NCBI RefSeq assembly: GCF_004364975.1
Contig: NZ_SOBW01000007.1
Location: 558,001-622,000 of the forward strand
DNA length: 64,000 bases
Direction: 5' to 3'
Source of the DNA: Gelidibacter sediminis
GTDB lineage: Bacteria; Bacteroidota; Bacteroidia; Flavobacteriales; Flavobacteriaceae
Position 1 is the stretch's first letter. The number at the start of each line of letters is the position of its first letter. Under the pieces are notes generated by a model that was not told the origin of the DNA, searched no databases, and worked only from the letters and a program-made list of their open reading frames with translations. Made by a program: the position numbers and the translations under genes. Positions 43,085 to 50,854 of the stretch are shown piece after piece.

Positions 43085-45391
43085 TTAGTTTTTAGCTTTG
43101 GGTACAGTTTCATTTACCTGAAATAAAATCGGTAAACTATACGGTACAACTACCGCTTTCCCTCTCTGTTTGCCCGGTTTCATTTTTGGCAATAGTCCAA
43201 TTACACGAATCGCCTCTTTTTCCAATTCTGGATGCGGCGCTCTCGATCTTATATCGGTAATACTGCCATCCTTACCAATTTTAAAAATTACCGTAATACG
43301 CTGCATTCCTTTTAGCCCCAAATCATTGGCTAATTTGGTATTGAAGTTATTATTGACAAATTGGCTGATTTCATCTGAGGTACATTTTTTTCGATCCACC
43401 TCTGCCTCTAATGAAATGCAAGACAGGATATATGGGGCTTCTTCTATAACGGCATAAGGAACTTCCAACAAATTTTCTGAAGATTTTTCGTGAACTTCCA
43501 CCGCCTCAATATTCTTTTCTTGGTTTTCGGGATTCTTTTGATTCGATTTTCTAGATGCTACATCATCTTTCAAATTTTCATTAATTTCAAACAGTATAGG
43601 CAAGCTATAAGGTACCGTAACCGCTTTCCCTCTTTGTTTCCCAGGTGTGAAATCTGGCATTGCTTTAGTGACTCTTATAGCTTCAGCTTCTAAATCGGGA
43701 TGCGATGCTCTCGACCTAACTTCTCTAACTTTTCCGTCCTTACCGATCTTAAAAATAACACTGATCCGCTGTCTACCTTTCAAACCAAGTGTATTTGCGA
43801 GGTCAACATTAAAATTTTCGTTAACAAATTGTGCTACTTTATCTGAGGTGCATGTTTTATCAACATCCTTCGATCCTGATGGCTCACAACCTTCAAATAA
43901 TGGCACTTCTTCAATGACGGCGTATGGCACTTCAATATCTTGAGATTCCATATTGTTTTTTGTAACATCTGCGCCTTTTTTTCCAAAATCAGATATTATA
44001 CTCGAAGTGCCATCTACCAATGTCAATTTATAATAAAAATCATCTTTTTTAATTAGATCCAATTTTTCATCTTTTCGTTTTTGTTCGGCGTCGGTTAAAT
44101 TTCCTATATTCTCAACAAACAAACGCAGCTCACCATCTCTTGCGCCATTTTCCCAACTTCTTTTTGCTTCATCAGTTTTTTTATAAGCGAGGTAATCTTC
44201 ATAGGTTTTAAATCTATTTATTGAGCGCTTAAACTGTGCATCATCAACTTCGGTAAAATTACCTTCATCTTGCTTTTTGTTATTCATTTTGGTAAACATA
44301 TAATTCCAAAAAGCTTGATTTTTTGCAACTTCATCTTTACTTTTAATATACCTATCTCCTGCTTTGCCATATAGCTTATAAGCTTCAATAAAAAACTTAT
44401 TTTTATCATATAAGTTGTCAATCTCTTTGTAATACTTGTCCACTAGCTCCTGGAACGTCAATTCCTGATTGAATTTTTCTTCCTCTAAAAATGGAATAGA
44501 CTCCTTTATTACACTCGCATAAGACGAGGTGTACAACAACATTCCTGTCACCATTGGAATTAATAATGCGTATTTAAAAAGATGGATCTGTTTTGATTTT
44601 GATTTGCTTAACATAGCGATTCGTTTTTTGATTAATGATTGTTTGAAAAAAGGATTGATGAATGAAATGTGTTGGGTCTCAAAAACCTGAGACAACAGAC
44701 TTTGGTAATAGGCGGATTTGCCTTTATATTTTACGGCTTTGGCATCGGCAATAAATTCGTGCAGGGTGGATACTCTGCTTTGATACATATACACCATTGG
44801 ATTAAACCAAAAGGCAATGCGCAAGACTTCAAAAATCAGCAAATCGATACTATGTCTTTCCTTAACGTGTACCAGTTCATGCTGCACAATATGTTCTTTT
44901 TTATCAGATTCGATTTCTGTACCTAAAAAAATGTAGTGGAAAAATGAAAACGCTGCACTACTATTCAATACATATACAATTAAAGCCTCGCCCTCCCAAC
45001 GTTGTGGATTTTTGTTATAGAGCTTGTATAGTTTAACAATCTTATAGGCTAAAATTGCAGCCGTGAGCACCATACCAACCACCCAAACATGAGTCCATGA
45101 GACACTCATAGCCTGATCAGAAATTTGCACTGTTGGCATCATTTCCATACCATAACTAAGGTCTGACGACACCTCTCCAATAATAACTTCGGGCAATCGG
45201 ACCACCATAGGCTCTGGCACAATGGCTCTAAAACTTTCGAATTTAAGAAATGGCAAAAGCACGGATAAGAGCGCCGTACCTAGCAAATACGCGCGATTCC
45301 AATTAAAAAAAGTCTCTTTTTTTAAGAATAGGTCATAAATAATCAGAAAGAATATTTGAAACGCAACGGTCTGTAGGATATAATGCAGCAT
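43085..45391 (-). CDS. M56 family (BlaR1-like) metallopeptidase with two TonB C-terminal-like domains
   Basis: A 768-residue membrane protein. Membrane segments lie at about 5-21, 35-50 and 100-118, with HELVH at 171-175 the zinc site and HEFIAD near 211 the third ligand; a fourth segment lies near 275-295. The long periplasmic region ends in two tandem TonB_C-like repeats (about 505-622 and 650-762), both reading VPYAVIEE, then a Cys pair, GLKG.QRI.VIFKIGKDG and PGKQRGKAV.VPYSLPILF. They are clearly an internal duplication. It starts 2 bp after the BlaI-type gene stop. TonB_C-like domains as M56 tails are known in Bacteroidetes; their ligand is not. Confidence 0.92.
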   Translation of the reverse strand: MLHYILQTVAFQIFFLIIYDLFLKKETFFNWNRAYLLGTALLSVLLPFLKFESFRAIVPEPMVVRLPEVIIGEVSSDLSYGMEMMPTVQISDQAMSVSWTHVWVVGMVLTAAILAYKIVKLYKLYNKNPQRWEGEALIVYVLNSSAAFSFFHYIFLGTEIESDKKEHIVQHELVHVKERHSIDLLIFEVLRIAFWFNPMVYMYQSRVSTLHEFIADAKAVKYKGKSAYYQSLLSQVFETQHISFINPFFKQSLIKKRIAMLSKSKSKQIHLFKYALLIPMVTGMLLYTSSYASVIKESIPFLEEEKFNQELTFQELVDKYYKEIDNLYDKNKFFIEAYKLYGKAGDRYIKSKDEVAKNQAFWNYMFTKMNNKKQDEGNFTEVDDAQFKRSINRFKTYEDYLAYKKTDEAKRSWENGARDGELRLFVENIGNLTDAEQKRKDEKLDLIKKDDFYYKLTLVDGTSSIISDFGKKGADVTKNNMESQDIEVPYAVIEEVPLFEGCEPSGSKDVDKTCTSDKVAQFVNENFNVDLANTLGLKGRQRISVIFKIGKDGKVREVRSRASHPDLEAEAIRVTKAMPDFTPGKQRGKAVTVPYSLPILFEINENLKDDVASRKSNQKNPENQEKNIEAVEVHEKSSENLLEVPYAVIEEAPYILSCISLEAEVDRKKCTSDEISQFVNNNFNTKLANDLGLKGMQRITVIFKIGKDGSITDIRSRAPHPELEKEAIRVIGLLPKMKPGKQRGKAVVVPYSLPILFQVNETVPKAKN

Positions 45392-45393
45392 AA

Positions 45394-45756
45394 TCAGTTC
45401 TCTTTTTGGTTAATATCCTTTAAGATGGATTCCATTTCTTTTAGGCTGAGATCATTTTTCTTCACAAAAAAAGATACCATACTTTTAAACGACCCTTGAA
45501 AATAATTGTCCACCAACATATTAATACTTTGGTTGCTATATTCCGTTTTTGAAAGAATTGGAAAATAAATATGGCCCTTACCTTGCTTTTCATAATCCAC
45601 AAAACCTTTGCTTTCTAGAATCCGCACAATAGTGGACACGGTATTGTAGGCGGGTTTTGGGTCTGGCAATTGCTCAATAACCTGTTTAACATTGGCTTTT
45701 TTAAGTTGCCATAGCACTTGCATGATTTCCTCTTCGGCTTTTGTAAGTTGTTTCAT
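45394..45756 (-). CDS. BlaI/MecI/CopY family transcriptional repressor
   Basis: A 120-residue winged-helix repressor with the opening LTKAEEEIMQVLWQLKKANV, PAYNTVSTIVRILESKGFVD at the recognition helix and GKGHIYFPILSKTEY at the wing. I chose the ATG at 45756 since the longer frame would begin at a weaker in-frame start seven codons upstream. It heads the M56-TPR operon. Two adjacent dyads at 45881-45914 are candidate operators, different in sequence from those of the other BlaI locus at 16 kb. Signal and targets are unknown. Confidence 0.92.
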   Translation of the reverse strand: MKQLTKAEEEIMQVLWQLKKANVKQVIEQLPDPKPAYNTVSTIVRILESKGFVDYEKQGKGHIYFPILSKTEYSNQSINMLVDNYFQGSFKSMVSFFVKKNDLSLKEMESILKDINQKEN

Positions 45757-45880
45757 CTTTAAACCTGCACTTGCCAATTGGCAAACTTTACTGCAGTAGT
45801 TTTTAATGTCATGTGAATGTTGCTGGTGTAGAAATTAAGAGTTGAAATTCTGCAACTCACTAATTTCCTGATGCTAATAT

Positions 45881-46197: not shown

Positions 46198-46866
46198 CTA
46201 CAGAAAACCCATTTTTTTGGCTTCCTCAAGCAAAGTTTCATCTTTTCCATCCTCTACAGAGAACAACAACTTGAGTTGTCGTTTGCGCTTTTCTATGGCG
46301 CTCATAGATAAATTAATGTGTTCTCGTAAGGTAATTGTTCTAATGCCCTGGGAAAGTAAATGCAATATCTTCCTATTGATATCATCTACATATATATCGG
46401 TAGAAATAGATTTTTTAAGGTAGTTATTTACTGTATTGCTATAATAGGGTGGCGTTGTCAAGATGTGTTGAAATGCCTCAGCTAGTTCACTTGAGGTCAT
46501 ATCGCTTTTAATCAAAAACCCGTCAGGGTTAATTTCTTTAATGATATTATGTACTCTATACGATTCATTAAACATGGTCAGGATGACCACCTTAGCGTTA
46601 GGCATGAGCTCGCGTGTCAACTTTGCCAAATCTTCACCGGAAGTCAATTTGCCATTGGAAGAACTTGGCAAACTGATATCGAAAAAACAAATATCGTATG
46701 GTTTTTCAATAGCCGCCCGTTGCAGCAACTGATGCGCCGTATCACAATCATTTGCAGTTTCTATCTGTAAAATTTGATCGTCATGCTTAGTGGCCATGAG
46801 CGTGTTTTCATAACCTTCAATAATAATAGGATGATCATCTACCATTAAAATGTGAATATGTTGCAT
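46198..46866 (-). CDS. LuxR/NarL-type response regulator
   Basis: A 222-residue two-component regulator. The receiver domain (about 4-135) has the acidic pair Asp10-Asp11, the phospho-acceptor Asp63 in FFDISLP, Thr near 98 (VVILTMF) and Lys near 120 (GFLIKSD). The C-terminal GerE-type helix-turn-helix (about 150-215) has ILHLLSQGIRTITLREHINL and SMSAIEKRKRQLKLLF. It starts 6 bp after the histidine kinase stop, so they form a cognate pair. It is followed by an unusual pair of TACGG dyads and a terminator. Confidence 0.92.
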   Translation of the reverse strand: MQHIHILMVDDHPIIIEGYENTLMATKHDDQILQIETANDCDTAHQLLQRAAIEKPYDICFFDISLPSSSNGKLTSGEDLAKLTRELMPNAKVVILTMFNESYRVHNIIKEINPDGFLIKSDMTSSELAEAFQHILTTPPYYSNTVNNYLKKSISTDIYVDDINRKILHLLSQGIRTITLREHINLSMSAIEKRKRQLKLLFSVEDGKDETLLEEAKKMGFL

Positions 46867-46872
46867 AGTTGT

Positions 46873-48903
46873 TTAGGTTGTGTAGGGGATTTTTATGAGT
46901 GTTGTCGTGCCTTTATCAATCTCCGACTGAAATTTTACAGTGCCATCAAGCTCCTCAATTCGAGATCTTATGTTTTTTAGACCAATGCCTTTTTTGCTCT
47001 TGTTAACTTCAAATCCGACACCATCATCGGTAATGGATAAGCAAATTACAGCTTTTTTTAATTCGATACTAATTTTGACATGTTTGGCTTTGGCATGTTT
47101 ATAAATATTCTGGAGCGACTCTTGAACGATTCTATACAGATTGATTTTAGTTTTATTGGATATAATTTCCCAATTGATGTCATCTGTAAAATCAAACTGA
47201 CATTCCAATTGATAGGCTTGGGCTTGTTTGTCAATGAGTTCAGATAAAATATCCATAAATCCGGAACCAGAAATAAAATCTGTATTCAGGTCATGAGAAA
47301 TTTTCCGAATGTCATTTTCGATGGTTTTAAGTTCTGCGATATATTTAGAACGTACTTGGACCGCCTCCTTTCCTTCATTAAAATTATAGCTGTCTAAGCT
47401 TAAACGGGTCCCAAACAAACGTCCCAACACCCCATCATGTAATTCTTGGGAGATTCGCTTTTTCTCTTCTGCCCTGGCACCATCAACTTTATCTTGCTGC
47501 GACAACATGAGATTATAAATTTCTTCGTTGGCCTCTTGTTGGTCTTGCTTAAATTTCAATTCCTTATTTTTATTGCGTTGGGTAAAAATAATGTAAACCA
47601 ATAAAGACGTTAATAGAAGCACCATTGAACTGATAACCCACCACATCTTTTCTGTCGCAATCTTCTCTTTTTCCAATTCTAGCTGATCCGTTTCAAACTC
47701 TATGCGGGCAAATTTATTACGAATTCTGCGTTCATTTGCCAATAAGCTGTCACTGAGATAAATATGTTCTCTTAAAAACGCCTTACCTTCTTCACCTGGT
47801 TTGAGTTCAGACAACAAAACCATCGACTCTAATAAAATGTCATTTGAGGAAATCTCGTTAGCTAATTTGTAAGATTGTTCAGCATATTGAACGGCTTGAT
47901 CAAGCTTTCCTCGACCTTTGTAAAATTTTGCTAAATCAATCGAAACATTCAACTTGTTAATAGGATCGTCGAGACTGTCAGATATACGATATGCTTTTGC
48001 AAACATATTTTCCAATTGTTTATAATCTTGGTTCCCATTAAGAAATCTTGCAAAGGCTACATTATCTAACACCAAGGCATAAAAATTAGGATCCAAATCG
48101 AACAACGCCTTTTGTTTTAGAATACCCTCATAAATATCTAATGCTGTCTTAAGTGCTCCTTTCTCTTTGTAAACATGGGCAATGTTATTTTCGGAAGACA
48201 ATTTCAACAATAAGCCATTGTCCATCTTTTCAGCCATTTCATAGGCTTTGTGATGATATTCTATAGCTTTGTCATATAATTTTAAAGTAGTGGCTCCGCC
48301 CCCAATTCTATTGTAAAGCAGCCATAGACTTTCATAATTATAATCGTTTTTTGGAAGTTGCTCAGTTAACTTAATAGCATTGATGGCACTTTCTTCACTC
48401 CCAATATAATCTTTCTCCAATTTCTGGATTTCAGAAATATTAATCAATATTTCCACTTGTCGAGACGCCATGTCCAACTGTTCTGAAATTTTATATGCTT
48501 TGGTGTAGTAGTAATAGGCGCTATCATTTTGAGTTCTACTCCGATGATGATACCAACCCAAATTGTGGCTAGCAATGGCCAAGGCCAGTGAGTCGTTAAT
48601 TTTTTTGGATAATCTTAAATTGTCAAAATTGACATTTCTAAATTCGTCAAATTTGCCCGTGTAGATACAAAGCGCTGAATAATTTTGATTCGATTTAATA
48701 ATGATGGAATCAATTTTTAATTTCTTTGAATACCCAACAGCGCTTCGGGCAAATTGAAATCGCTCTTCTAATGAATGCTCGTCAGCCTTGCTCAGTGCTC
48801 GAAATTTTACGACACTATCATACTCAGCTGATTTCAATTTATTTTGGGAATAAGTCCCTAGGCTGAAAAACAAGACTAAAATGAATAGAGGTAACCTCAA
48901 CAC
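46873..48903 (-). CDS. TPR-domain sensor histidine kinase (HisKA_3 type)
   Basis: A 676-residue protein with a signal peptide (about 1-19), a long N-terminal TPR array (about 60-400) that would lie in the periplasm, a single membrane segment (about 422-444) and a cytoplasmic kinase. The kinase has the HisKA_3 motif ELHDGVLGRLFGTRL with phospho-His, then the ATPase boxes DDGVGFEV and KKGIGLKNIRSRIEE. No ATG is near the 5' end; the best start is the GTG at 48903 (or the following TTG). It pairs with the LuxR-type regulator 6 bp downstream and lies directly behind a small exported-peptide gene. TPRs commonly bind peptides, so a peptide input is plausible (inference). Confidence 0.92.
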   Translation of the reverse strand: MLRLPLFILVLFFSLGTYSQNKLKSAEYDSVVKFRALSKADEHSLEERFQFARSAVGYSKKLKIDSIIIKSNQNYSALCIYTGKFDEFRNVNFDNLRLSKKINDSLALAIASHNLGWYHHRSRTQNDSAYYYYTKAYKISEQLDMASRQVEILINISEIQKLEKDYIGSEESAINAIKLTEQLPKNDYNYESLWLLYNRIGGGATTLKLYDKAIEYHHKAYEMAEKMDNGLLLKLSSENNIAHVYKEKGALKTALDIYEGILKQKALFDLDPNFYALVLDNVAFARFLNGNQDYKQLENMFAKAYRISDSLDDPINKLNVSIDLAKFYKGRGKLDQAVQYAEQSYKLANEISSNDILLESMVLLSELKPGEEGKAFLREHIYLSDSLLANERRIRNKFARIEFETDQLELEKEKIATEKMWWVISSMVLLLTSLLVYIIFTQRNKNKELKFKQDQQEANEEIYNLMLSQQDKVDGARAEEKKRISQELHDGVLGRLFGTRLSLDSYNFNEGKEAVQVRSKYIAELKTIENDIRKISHDLNTDFISGSGFMDILSELIDKQAQAYQLECQFDFTDDINWEIISNKTKINLYRIVQESLQNIYKHAKAKHVKISIELKKAVICLSITDDGVGFEVNKSKKGIGLKNIRSRIEELDGTVKFQSEIDKGTTTLIKIPYTT

Positions 48904-48983
48904 GCTGGAATGGATTTGTTGTATAATTTCAAATTTAGGATAATTTATTTAATCTAATAGTTTTAATTCAATCCAATACCAAA

Positions 48984-49008
48984 AGCCCTTATAGTATTTA
49001 TAAGGGCT
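48984..49008 (-). terminator. Terminator of the small exported-peptide gene
   Basis: AGCCCTTATA and TATAAGGGCT form a perfect 10-bp stem around GTATT, followed by TTTT on the minus strand. It lies 24 bp past the stop of the 55-residue peptide gene and before the kinase gene. Confidence 0.75.
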
Positions 49009-49032
49009 CTGAATAAGCTATTATAAGAGTGA

Positions 49033-49200
49033 CTATCCTTGGGTCGGAATACGAATACCGTCTCTGGAGTGTGCTAATAAATCGTATTGAGTTTTTGCAG
49101 GTTCGTAAGTATTCGCCTCTTTTTGAGCAGGTGTTTTATCTGTTTGACTAGAAACAGTTAAAAATAATGCAAGTAACAATGTAATTTTTAGGGTCTTCAT
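49033..49200 (-). CDS. Small exported peptide (55 residues), function unknown
   Basis: A short gene with ATG at 49200 and stop at 49033-49035. The product begins MKTLKITLLLALFLTVSSQ, a typical signal peptide, leaving a mature peptide of about 36 residues ending SRDGIRIPTQG. The terminator at 48984-49008 closes the unit, which supports a real gene. It lies immediately upstream of a TPR histidine kinase and response regulator in the same direction. A dyad GGCATG-GAA-CATGCC (49248-49262) sits about 50 bp upstream of the start and could be an operator. I do not recognise the family. A signalling or regulated target role with the kinase is inference. Confidence 0.7.
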   Translation of the reverse strand: MKTLKITLLLALFLTVSSQTDKTPAQKEANTYEPAKTQYDLLAHSRDGIRIPTQG

Positions 49201-49734
49201 TTTAATCAATTTTAAAGGTTATGAATAGTTTAGTTAATTAATAATTGGGCATGGAACATGCCATTCGAGGGAAGAATGGATTATTAATTTTTTGAGCGTT
49301 AAGCTCCAACATTGCATAACACTATTGAGGGATAGTTTATATTTGCAATACCGTTTATAAAATGGATTAAAATTTTCTAGATAAGCTAGTTAACAACTCA
49401 TATAGAATTACAAATATATTATAAAAAAGTTATTAACAATGTTTATTAGCAGATAAAATGCAAATTATTGCGATTAAATTCATACACAAACACATATAAA
49501 CGAGGTTTTTAGCATTGATGAGTGGAAAAAGAATTAGCAACAGGTTGTGTATTCAAAAAGTTGTCCATACCCTAAAACAAAAAAGCATCCCGATTCTGTT
49601 ATAAACAGAAAAGGAAAGCTTCTCATCGGAATACCAAATTGCTTTGGTATCACTACGTTTATCTAAACTTTCATTCAGATAAAACAACACAACATCTTCA
49701 TATTCCCATGACGATAGGAATCGCGCGAAAAAAA
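49201..49734. other. Intergenic region upstream of the small exported-peptide gene
   Basis: Apart from the dyad GGCATG-GAA-CATGCC (49248-49262) I see no gene here. An open frame at 49553-49765 lies over the tRNA-Asp terminator and is not credible as a gene. Confidence 0.5.
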
Positions 49735-49770: not shown

Positions 49771-49844
49771 CGGTCTGGACGGGACTCGAACCCGCGACCT
49801 CCGCCGTGACAGGGCGGCATTCTAACCAACTGAACTACCAGACC
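49771..49844 (-). tRNA. tRNA-Asp(GTC)
   Basis: A 74-nt tRNA on the minus strand. The acceptor arms GGTCTGG and CCAGACC pair perfectly with discriminator G. The anticodon stem CCGCC/GGCGG encloses CTGTCAC, giving anticodon GTC. The T arm GCGGGTTCGAGTCCCGT is standard. CCA is not encoded. Confidence 0.97.
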
Positions 49845-49924: not shown

Positions 49925-50854
49925 CTACTTAAATTTACTCCGCTCTACCATGTATGTTGTCAGGATCTTATCAAAATCCTTTGTGATATCGGCTTCCACA
50001 TATTTAATTTGGTATTGACCGCATTTTAGACGTAACGTATCAAAATAAGAAGTTACAGCGCTTGCATAAGCGTCCTTCATAGTTTCAGGATACAATTTTA
50101 TATCTGCACCTGTTTCGACATCTACAAACGTTTTGGGGGTATTATCAAAATCAAACAGTTTTTCTTTACCCTTATCAAAAACATGAAATAATACGACTTC
50201 ATGCTTTTTATGCTTCAGGTGCCGTAGTGCCTCAAAAAGCTTAGAGTTGTCAGTGCTTGTTTGAAACATATCCGTAAAAAAGAAAATCAACGATCTCCTA
50301 TGGATTTTCTCCGCAATTTGGTGTAAATAAGTATAGGTTTCAGTTTGTCTTTTTATAGGTTTCGTAGAAACTGTTCTGCTCAATTCGCCCAACAGCATTT
50401 GATGGTGGCGTTCACTTCCTTTTTCTGGAGCATAATAGTCATAAGCATCACTATAAATACTCATCCCAACCGCGTCGCGCTGCTTTTTAAGGATATGCAT
50501 CAAACTGGCAGATGCCAAGGCTGTAAACGCAATTTTGTTCAGTTGAGCAATCGAAAATGAGGCCATCTCCGGATAATGCATAGAACTGCTATTGTCAATT
50601 ATCAAGTGGCAACGTAAATTGGTCTCCTCATCATAGCGCTTGGTATAGAGTCTATCGGTTTTGGCATAGAGCTTCCAATCGATATGCTTAGTGCTTTCGC
50701 CTTGGTTATAAATTTTATGCTCTGCAAATTCTGCCGAAAACCCATGAAATGGACTCTTATGCATCCCCGCTATAAAACCTTCCACCACCCGTTTGGCGAG
50801 AAGTTCGAGGTTTTTAAAACCTCCGGTTTTATTGAGTTCTGCTTGAAGATTCAT
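49925..50854 (-). CDS. DUF58 domain-containing protein (vWA-like)
   Basis: A 309-residue DUF58 protein, recognised by FHGFSAEFAEHKIYNQGEST near the N-terminus, HIDWKLYAKTDRLYTKRYDE (the family signature 'DW...A....l.vk.~e') and LIIDNSSSMHYP, a DxSxS MIDAS-like metal site of the vWA fold. Such proteins are usually encoded beside a MoxR AAA+ ATPase and Bat aerotolerance genes and help assemble metal enzymes or membrane complexes. Neither is seen nearby here, so this appears to be an orphan copy. It is a single minus-strand gene between tRNA-Asp and clpP. Confidence 0.88.
   Translation of the reverse strand: MNLQAELNKTGGFKNLELLAKRVVEGFIAGMHKSPFHGFSAEFAEHKIYNQGESTKHIDWKLYAKTDRLYTKRYDEETNLRCHLIIDNSSSMHYPEMASFSIAQLNKIAFTALASASLMHILKKQRDAVGMSIYSDAYDYYAPEKGSERHHQMLLGELSRTVSTKPIKRQTETYTYLHQIAEKIHRRSLIFFFTDMFQTSTDNSKLFEALRHLKHKKHEVVLFHVFDKGKEKLFDFDNTPKTFVDVETGADIKLYPETMKDAYASAVTSYFDTLRLKCGQYQIKYVEADITKDFDKILTTYMVERSKFK

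Follow-up and report, generated by a model that had tools for sequence, protein, structure and literature searches.

In the RRNPP (or RRNPPA) systems of Bacillota, namely Rap-Phr, NprR-NprX, PlcR-PapR and AimR, a small exported peptide precursor is encoded next to a receptor that contains tetratricopeptide repeats (TPRs). Such systems are recognized by a precursor of 10-100 amino acids (aa) that is exported via Sec, a receptor of 250-500 aa with TPRs, and adjacency of the two genes (-60 to 400 bp) (PMC10075063). Duplications of the autoinducer, both inside the gene and of the gene as a whole, have been described for Rap-Phr (PMC5199041); tandemly duplicated propeptides have been described as well (PMC11343458). 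Here we describe a module of three genes on the minus strand of a 64-kb stretch of Gelidibacter sediminis DNA (hereinafter, the window; the source genome is 3.56 Mb and belongs to the same genus as our comparison genomes G001-G008), in which a 55-codon open reading frame (ORF) precedes the genes for a TPR-containing sensor histidine kinase and a response regulator. We put the probability that these genes, as predicted from their sequences, form a peptide-ligand/receptor two-component module at roughly 60%, with the peptide most likely being the cognate ligand of the kinase.

The module shares with the RRNPP systems the small, probably exported precursor adjoining a TPR receptor, the variable mature part, the repeats and duplications of the precursor, the co-divergence with the receptor and the TPR fold. 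The precursor is 55 aa long in the window and has a median length of 53 aa across 97 loci (123-133 aa in the repeat-bearing L131, L192 and L194), its Sec export is likely, the kinase ORF begins 129 nt past the peptide stop codon (L142, at 443 nt, is an exception to the adjacency), and the TPR receptor is indicated by a TPR_12 domain, by NprR and RapF among the profile matches of the kinase, and by the fold. In contrast to the RRNPP receptors, the kinase is a membrane protein of 676 residues (vs 250-500), and its TPR domain is predicted to be extracytoplasmic, whereas the RRNPP receptors are intracellular and bind re-imported peptide; furthermore, the host is Gram-negative and about half of the precursors resemble lipoproteins. 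With an extracytoplasmic TPR domain, re-import of the peptide would not be needed. Membership in RRNPP was considered and rejected on the grounds of receptor length and topology: the module may work like an RRNPP system but is not a member of this group because its receptor is a membrane kinase of that size.

Within the same phylum, the sensor region of Porphyromonas gingivalis FimS is periplasmic and contains eight TPRs; a review, which names no signal for it, suggests that a protein might play this part (PMC5706477). FimS-FimR, which enters our comparison by description only, resembles the present module in being a two-component system with a periplasmic TPR sensor region; unlike the kinase described here, 19 of 20 other TPR kinases sampled across the class have no small ORF beside them. 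In the Gram-positive agr, ComD and ComQXPA systems, a peptide precursor gene also lies beside the genes for its kinase and regulator, but the kinases there have a polytopic membrane domain as their sensor and come with processing or export genes; here, there is a single transmembrane (TM) segment, a TPR sensor and a precursor with a predicted signal peptide, and no dedicated processing or export gene was seen beside it. A small lipoprotein or periplasmic protein that regulates an envelope kinase is also the logic of RcsF-RcsCDB and NlpE/CpxP-CpxA, and the regulator found here is RcsB-like; compared only through family scans, RcsF, NlpE and CpxP differ from the present module with respect to the sensor, the precursor repeats and the hypervariability.

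A conserved small gene upstream of TPR kinases

The 55-codon ORF (translation MKTLKITLLLALFLTVSSQTDKTPAQKEANTYEPAKTQYDLLAHSRDGIRIPTQG, followed by a stop codon) is a genuine gene under purifying selection. By single-sequence search, it is present in all nine genomes of the genus and in 11 of 59 relatives, and it was found at at least 28 loci in Gelidibacter, Aquaticitalea, Winogradskyella, Psychroserpens, Wocania, strain ALC-1 and metagenome-assembled genomes, in all 28 of which orthologs of the kinase and the regulator follow (L050 retains only the signal-peptide part of the peptide match). The NG86 estimates of dN and dS are 0.079 and 0.84 for the comparison with the nearest relative, 0.038 and 0.47 for another close pair, and 0.42 and 0.91 in the most diverged of eight pairs. 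The first-pass annotation of the window had proposed that this gene takes part in peptide sensing and had named a lack of conservation in related genomes as a finding that would refute the proposal; the frame is conserved.

The start of the precursor passes our own charge and hydrophobicity filter for signal-peptide-like starts, and the predicted cut between VSS and QTD would leave a mature peptide of 37 residues with a conserved C-terminal end (DLLAHS...IPTQG); the first-pass annotation had likewise read a signal peptide, with a mature segment of about 36 residues. In Bacteroidetes, signal peptidase I commonly exposes Gln, which is converted to pyroglutamate (PMC5837995, PMC10653852); the predicted cut fits this rule, and the mature window peptide probably begins with pyroglutamate. 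Searches of Pfam and NCBIfam retrieved no family for the window peptide at E <= 0.1; over 30 peptide members, NCBIfam gave only scattered matches (E 0.0095 or worse), PHROGs gave one weak match (phrog_17307, E 0.0076), and PADLOC matched the kinase with a generic TPR model but left the peptide without a match.

A profile of the peptide matches 115 of 299 genomes of the family, and the kinase and the regulator follow at all 40 places taken among the matches listed, most of these places having been picked for their short open frames. Selection by the regulator alone, with the peptide unused, yielded loci in 105 of the 299 genomes (88 of 236 genera), of which 101 were assessable once four had been set aside: L183, which lies at a contig edge, and L143, L178 and L197, whose kinase is truncated or broken or was not found. 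A signal-peptide-like ORF of 35-140 codons on the same strand, at most 500 nt upstream of the kinase (with kinase starts taken as ORF starts), is found in 97 of the 101 loci, and the gap between the two has a median of 118 nt (range -23 to 256). All four misses show peptide sequence nearby: an assembly gap in L110 leaves a peptide end beside the kinase (by eye), with another copy 1 kb upstream; the ORF of L142 ends 443 nt from the kinase; L180 lies at a contig edge, with a peptide end visible by eye; and the 133-aa repeat ORF of L192 starts beyond the 500-nt limit. Peptide homologs recur beside orthologous TPR kinases at every assessable regulator-selected locus, as the first-pass annotation would lead one to expect. 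The same filter is passed by 2 of 101 antisense controls, 42 of 2020 dinucleotide shuffles, 2 of 14 other HisKA_3 kinases of the relatives (neither ORF peptide-like by eye) and 1 of the 20 class-wide TPR kinases (L245; in another of these controls, L237, the kinase start is poorly placed).

The order-level sample comprises 20 of 28 matches; among the 19 loci besides L120, a TPR kinase is present in 18, all with a small ORF; these 18 include L132 and L139, which belong to another family. In L129, a relative of the regulator has no adjoining TPR kinase; an adjacent gene, recognized by its N-terminus, presumably encodes a protein resembling dihydrolipoamide dehydrogenase. At the more distant TPR-kinase locus L245 (Flavobacteriaceae genome G328), the kinase is preceded, at a distance of about 54 nt, by a lipoprotein-like ORF of 63 aa that looks like a genuine relative, so that the peptide-kinase association may extend beyond this clade. 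Going by gene order, the arrangement is kept in those Flavobacteriaceae that carry the regulator and, at about a hundred genomes, the observation is more general than could be seen from the single window.

The sensor kinase and the response regulator

The kinase contains TPR_12 (E 5.6e-16), HATPase_c (1e-12) and HisKA_3 (9.6e-5, 0.7 bit below the Pfam cut-off) domains and is the only one of its kind in the genome at E <= 1e-10, the next match being 27% identical and limited to the kinase part. A signal peptide is followed by a TPR superhelix (residues ~22-392), a single TM segment (~421-440) and the HisKA_3/HATPase_c part. Because the signal peptide is N-terminal and the single TM segment comes after the TPRs, the latter are predicted to lie outside the inner membrane, in agreement with the periplasmic array of the first-pass annotation. 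The regulator contains a Response_reg domain and matches the RcsB profile over positions 2-213 (E 8e-16), with RcsB/NarL matches extending through the output domain; its model (predicted local distance difference test score, pLDDT, 91.0) resembles RcsB, LiaR and DesR. With a histidine in the dimerization and histidine phosphotransfer (DHp) domain, HATPase_c, and a receiver joined to a helix-turn-helix output domain, the pair has the composition of a HisKA_3/NarL-type two-component system; H489 is invariant in 34 kinases and D63 in 34 regulators.

In the model of the kinase (mean pLDDT 85.7, mostly above 90 in the TPR helices between 22 and 392), a long helix runs from residue 370 through the membrane into the DHp domain, followed by the HATPase domain. 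The solved folds nearest to the TPR model are LGN/Pins (Z 27-29), followed by RapI (Z 25.8, root mean square deviation 3.2, 270 aligned residues), Rap of phi3T with its pheromone (Z 24.3), NprR (24.1) and Rap bound to CSF (24.0), the Rap and NprR chains apart from RapI scoring about 23-24; other TPR proteins rank close behind. As modeled, the TPR domain resembles both the peptide-binding LGN and the Gram-positive Rap/NprR receptors; the RRNPP receptors to which the first-pass annotation had pointed are matched among other peptide-binding TPRs. Of 34 kinases, 31 retain Asn 198, 33 retain Asn 240 and 31 retain Asn 281; in RRNPP receptors, Asn ladders hold the backbones of the peptides.

The peptide diverges and is exchanged together with the TPR domain

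Across 94 loci, the mean identity is 0.36 for the TPR domain, 0.61 for the kinase domain and 0.66 for the regulator. Peptide distance correlates with TPR distance (r = 0.84), and the partial correlation given the kinase domain and the regulator is 0.68 (1/500 label permutations), the other partials being -0.20 for peptide and kinase domain and 0.27 for peptide and regulator. When a neighboring gene served as the control (29 loci), the partial correlation was 0.61 for the TPR domain vs 0.02 for the neighbor. The divergence of the peptide tracks the TPR sensor, not the kinase domain, the regulator or the neighboring gene.

Locus L140 is, by its sequence relationships, a natural chimera in which the peptide and the TPR domain are of another class (see below) than the kinase domain and the regulator. 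In its TPR domain, identity is 0.50-0.55 with eight kinases of class B but 0.28-0.34 with 11 of class A, whereas its kinase domain is closer to class A (0.66-0.71) than to class B (0.57-0.63); the six nearest regulators are all class A (0.78-0.85), and the peptide is class B. The six nearest TPR matches are class B by letters, the script labels being loose ('B/lipo' on some peptides without a lipobox). Eight of nine 40-residue windows over positions 21-380 favor class B, and the class switches between ~380 and 460, near the membrane segment. Upstream of the peptide gene of L140, the AATCCATT modules and CCCTAAATTT beside the ATG are retained. The first-pass annotation had allowed the peptide to be either the input or the main target of the kinase-regulator pair; given that it co-diverges with the TPR domain and was exchanged with it in L140, the input is favored.

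Classes and variability of the precursors

Across the family, the mature parts are hypervariable and at times repeated. Class A, to which the window peptide and those of Winogradskyella belong, is without a lipobox and has a near-invariant N-region (MKTLKITL), a variable middle and a conserved C-terminal end (...DLLAHxKKxxLPTQG or similar). Class B consists of lipoprotein-like precursors of about 48 residues (SCTKQDLNEDDVL...YTGGGVDE), and further peptide types end in KKPGQNL or PTNG/PSNG. The lipobox filter is passed by 52 of 97 precursors (55 with a looser filter), the other 45 being without a lipobox, and many of the lipoprotein-like precursors are acidic after the Cys.

Exact internal repeats of at least 6 residues are present in 3 of 100 regulator-selected peptides (L151, L192 and L194, for the last of which the ORF nearest to the kinase in the script output is a decoy and the larger repeat ORF was taken afterwards) and in 5 of 18 order-level ones. 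The unit IIGAGATGGNKKVD occurs four times in L125, and a Cys-rich unit of the CDDCAHDSDDRETLA type six times in L131. A Pfam search with six peptides of other classes gave nothing for three, weak matches for two and, for L131, a match above the cut-off of a zinc ribbon (PF08274), probably due to the CxxC repeats; with these repeats, the L131 precursor (L131:1630-2001, plus strand) could bind metal. By script count, tandem copies of the peptide gene are found at 8 of 116 loci, with up to six in L111. In L130, the locus of genome G365, eight signal-peptide-like ORFs precede the kinase, seven nearly alike lipoproteins and a divergent last one (a count that leaves out two overlapping decoy frames).

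A structured leader upstream of the peptide gene

The sequence TATATTTG, which we take to be a -7 promoter box of the Bacteroidetes TAnnTTTG type, is located about 210-230 nt before the ATG (218 in the window) in nine of ten loci of the Gelidibacter set, with TATCTTTG in L024, and other loci have similar boxes at roughly -195 to -230. From this box, we infer transcription of a leader. The stretch from the box to the ATG contains two AAUCCAUU...UCCCUC modules as well as hairpins, for which RNAalifold predicts helices P1 and P2 in two subsets of leaders. The perfect dyad reported in the first-pass annotation is present, with a 6-bp stem; rather than standing alone, it is P2, one hairpin of this leader of about 200 nt.

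Because a joint alignment of 39 leaders yielded no consensus fold, pairs were counted in the two subsets: A5, with 14 Winogradskyella-type leaders (L034, L047 and L104 of the initial 17 left out), and A6, with 20 Gelidibacter-type leaders (L105, L107 and L108 of the initial 19 left out; L025, L028, L031 and L102 brought in). With structures written from one member per set, 83.7% of the cells in A5 are paired, and 25 cells are changed on both sides, compared with a shuffled mean of 12.7 (a value that none of 500 shuffles reaches), seven of the nine P2 pairs having changes on both sides; support from A6 is weaker (3 cells vs 0.7 shuffled). Counted as pairs, changes on both sides do not exceed those of the shuffles in either set (8 vs 7.6 in A5, 1 vs 0.6 in A6). 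Rfam gave nothing above the gathering score except the tRNA gene.

The leader motifs are found upstream of class A, class B and class C peptides. Among 23 further loci, most of them order-level, an exact scan detected both motifs only in L120, and they are not in the 300 nt before the ORF at L083, L084, L095, L111 and L112, which are tandem-array or related loci. The covariance model of the leader, which misses divergent leaders, matched 10 of 120 genomes of the family, nine at peptide loci by coordinate. A match of the leader model in G145 (G145:C11:1224325-1224406, minus strand, E 6.9e-5) lies far from the regulator locus of that genome. The AAUCCAUU/UCCCUC motif was also considered as the mark of a regulon and rejected, with three matches in the genome, two of them in this leader. 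In the Winogradskyella-type leaders, AACCCUAAAUU beside the AUG and UUUUAGGUU, one arm of an upstream hairpin, are complementary to each other, hinting that alternative pairing could gate translation.

A model of peptide sensing and its alternatives

Under the ligand-receptor model, the precursor would be exported and, in the window, cut by signal peptidase I before the Gln, leaving the 37-residue peptide; about half of the family would make a lipoprotein instead. Either the whole mature peptide or its C-terminal end (...IRIPTQG in the window) would occupy the groove formed by the periplasmic TPRs, and its binding would alter kinase activity via the TM helix, whereupon the phosphorylated regulator would switch target genes, possibly including the promoter of the peptide gene itself. 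The lipoprotein forms would be released by proteolysis or act locally, and the structured 5' leader would, in part of the family, provide post-transcriptional control of peptide output. In the least certain step, released peptide might reach sister cells as a pheromone-like signal. A wider version, to which we tentatively assign somewhat less than an even chance, would be peptide communication throughout the Flavobacteriaceae family, in which hypervariable, at times repeated pheromones act on kinases with an RRNPP-like TPR receptor outside the inner membrane, pherotypes originate when peptide and TPR domain change together or are exchanged together, and the output is tuned by a new structured leader RNA.

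Several observations weigh against the ligand-receptor model. Roughly half of the precursors are lipoprotein-like and would not be freely diffusible unless cut, and no dedicated exporter or protease gene was seen beside the peptide gene. In L228 and L229, two TPR kinases that belong to the same family but are more distant are without a small ORF. The fold likeness is weak evidence for pheromone binding because TPR superhelices match many unrelated binders, with LGN ranking above Rap. The pairs in the mirror test are phylogenetically non-independent, fast-evolving regions may saturate together, and a second neighbor control is weaker (14 loci, partial correlation of 0.28 for the TPR domain vs 0.04 for the neighbor). 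The chimera L140 stands apart from the mirror test and is thus unaffected by this non-independence; within it, the TPR stretch 61-100 is nearer to class A (0.29 vs 0.16).

As the lipoprotein forms would require release or act locally, a different use of the same partners keeps its weight, namely surveillance of the envelope within one cell, in which the peptide or lipoprotein would be a trafficking probe or a periplasmic inhibitor, akin to RcsF/NlpE or CpxP. The TPR kinase would then respond to its mislocalization or titration, with no signaling from cell to cell; here too, the peptide would be the ligand of the kinase. Such a role would suit the 52 lipoprotein-like precursors with their often acidic residues after the Cys, the fact that RcsB is the best solved match of the regulator, and a peptide gene that seemingly has its own promoter and terminator, as autoregulated feedback predicts. 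The hypervariable mature parts, the intragenic repeats and the arrays of up to six (L111) or seven (L130) alike copies would be unusual for a trafficking probe, and 45 of the 97 precursors are without a lipobox; we regard this explanation as unlikely, if deserving of serious consideration. The linkage alone, tight as it is, would fit a conserved target gene, and small secreted variable peptides can be effectors, such that the peptide might be an output of the kinase-regulator pair, for example an antimicrobial or matrix peptide, that does not bind the kinase. This appears improbable given that neither co-divergence specifically with the sensor domain nor co-exchange with the TPR domain in L140 is predicted by it. 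That the leader itself is the functional product, a regulatory RNA, with the ORF of little weight, would account for helices with compensatory changes; it is very hard to reconcile with purifying selection on the protein and with the persistence of the ORF in order-level loci lacking the two leader motifs, and we give it hardly any credence.

Genomic context

On the minus strand, a promoter-like element, the leader, the 55-codon ORF, a terminator-like stem, the kinase gene and the regulator gene follow one another (Table 1). The terminator and the kinase gene next downstream in the same direction, both already reported in the first-pass annotation, hold up on inspection, and terminator-like stems behind the peptide gene were also recognized by eye in relatives. 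The neighbors are a DUF58 gene, a tRNA gene and the BlaI and M56-TonB genes, and no processing or export gene dedicated to the peptide was seen in the locus. A BlaI match after the module recurs in 22 of the 28 peptide-search loci and 29 of the 40 profile-search loci.

Table 1. Features of the module and of its surroundings, in coordinates of the window
Feature	Position	Strand	Basis or remark
DUF58 gene	49925-50854	-	upstream of the module
tRNA gene	49771-49844	-	upstream of the module; anticodon GTC by eye
Putative -7 promoter box, TATATTTG	49411-49418	-	-218 from the peptide ATG; TTG 18 nt upstream
Structured 5' leader containing two 'AAUCCAUU ... UCCCUC' modules	49201-49405	-	RNAalifold helices, pair counts; 5' boundary placed by means of the putative promoter box
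P2 hairpin of the leader, GGCATG-TTC-CATGCC, 6-bp stem	49248-49262	-	letters; pair changes in relatives
Small peptide precursor, 55 aa, signal peptidase I-type signal peptide predicted	49033-49200	-	ORF, conservation, selection
Terminator-like stem between the peptide and kinase genes	48984-49008	-	perfect 10-bp stem, then TTTT
Sensor histidine kinase, 676 residues, GTG start	46873-48903	-	TPR_12, HATPase_c, HisKA_3; topology inferred from sequence
NarL/RcsB-type response regulator, 222 residues, receiver and helix-turn-helix output domain	46198-46866	-	Response_reg; RcsB profile match
BlaI-like repressor and BlaR1 M56 peptidase with TonB_C domains	43085-45777	-	downstream of the regulator

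Implications

Kinases with periplasmic TPRs are common in the class, with 88 of 295 genomes matching the kinase profile at E <= 1e-50, most of these matches scoring well below those of the present clade. If the signal passes between cells, the family would constitute a peptide quorum-sensing class in Bacteroidota, of which there is no report in the accessible parts of the literature searched (most subscription papers and all preprints lie outside it). With a candidate ligand gene next to each kinase, with its hypervariable specificity groups and with a domain swap that arose in nature, the family makes it possible to test directly, in ordinary laboratory strains, what such TPR kinases respond to and whether peptide signaling occurs in flavobacteria.

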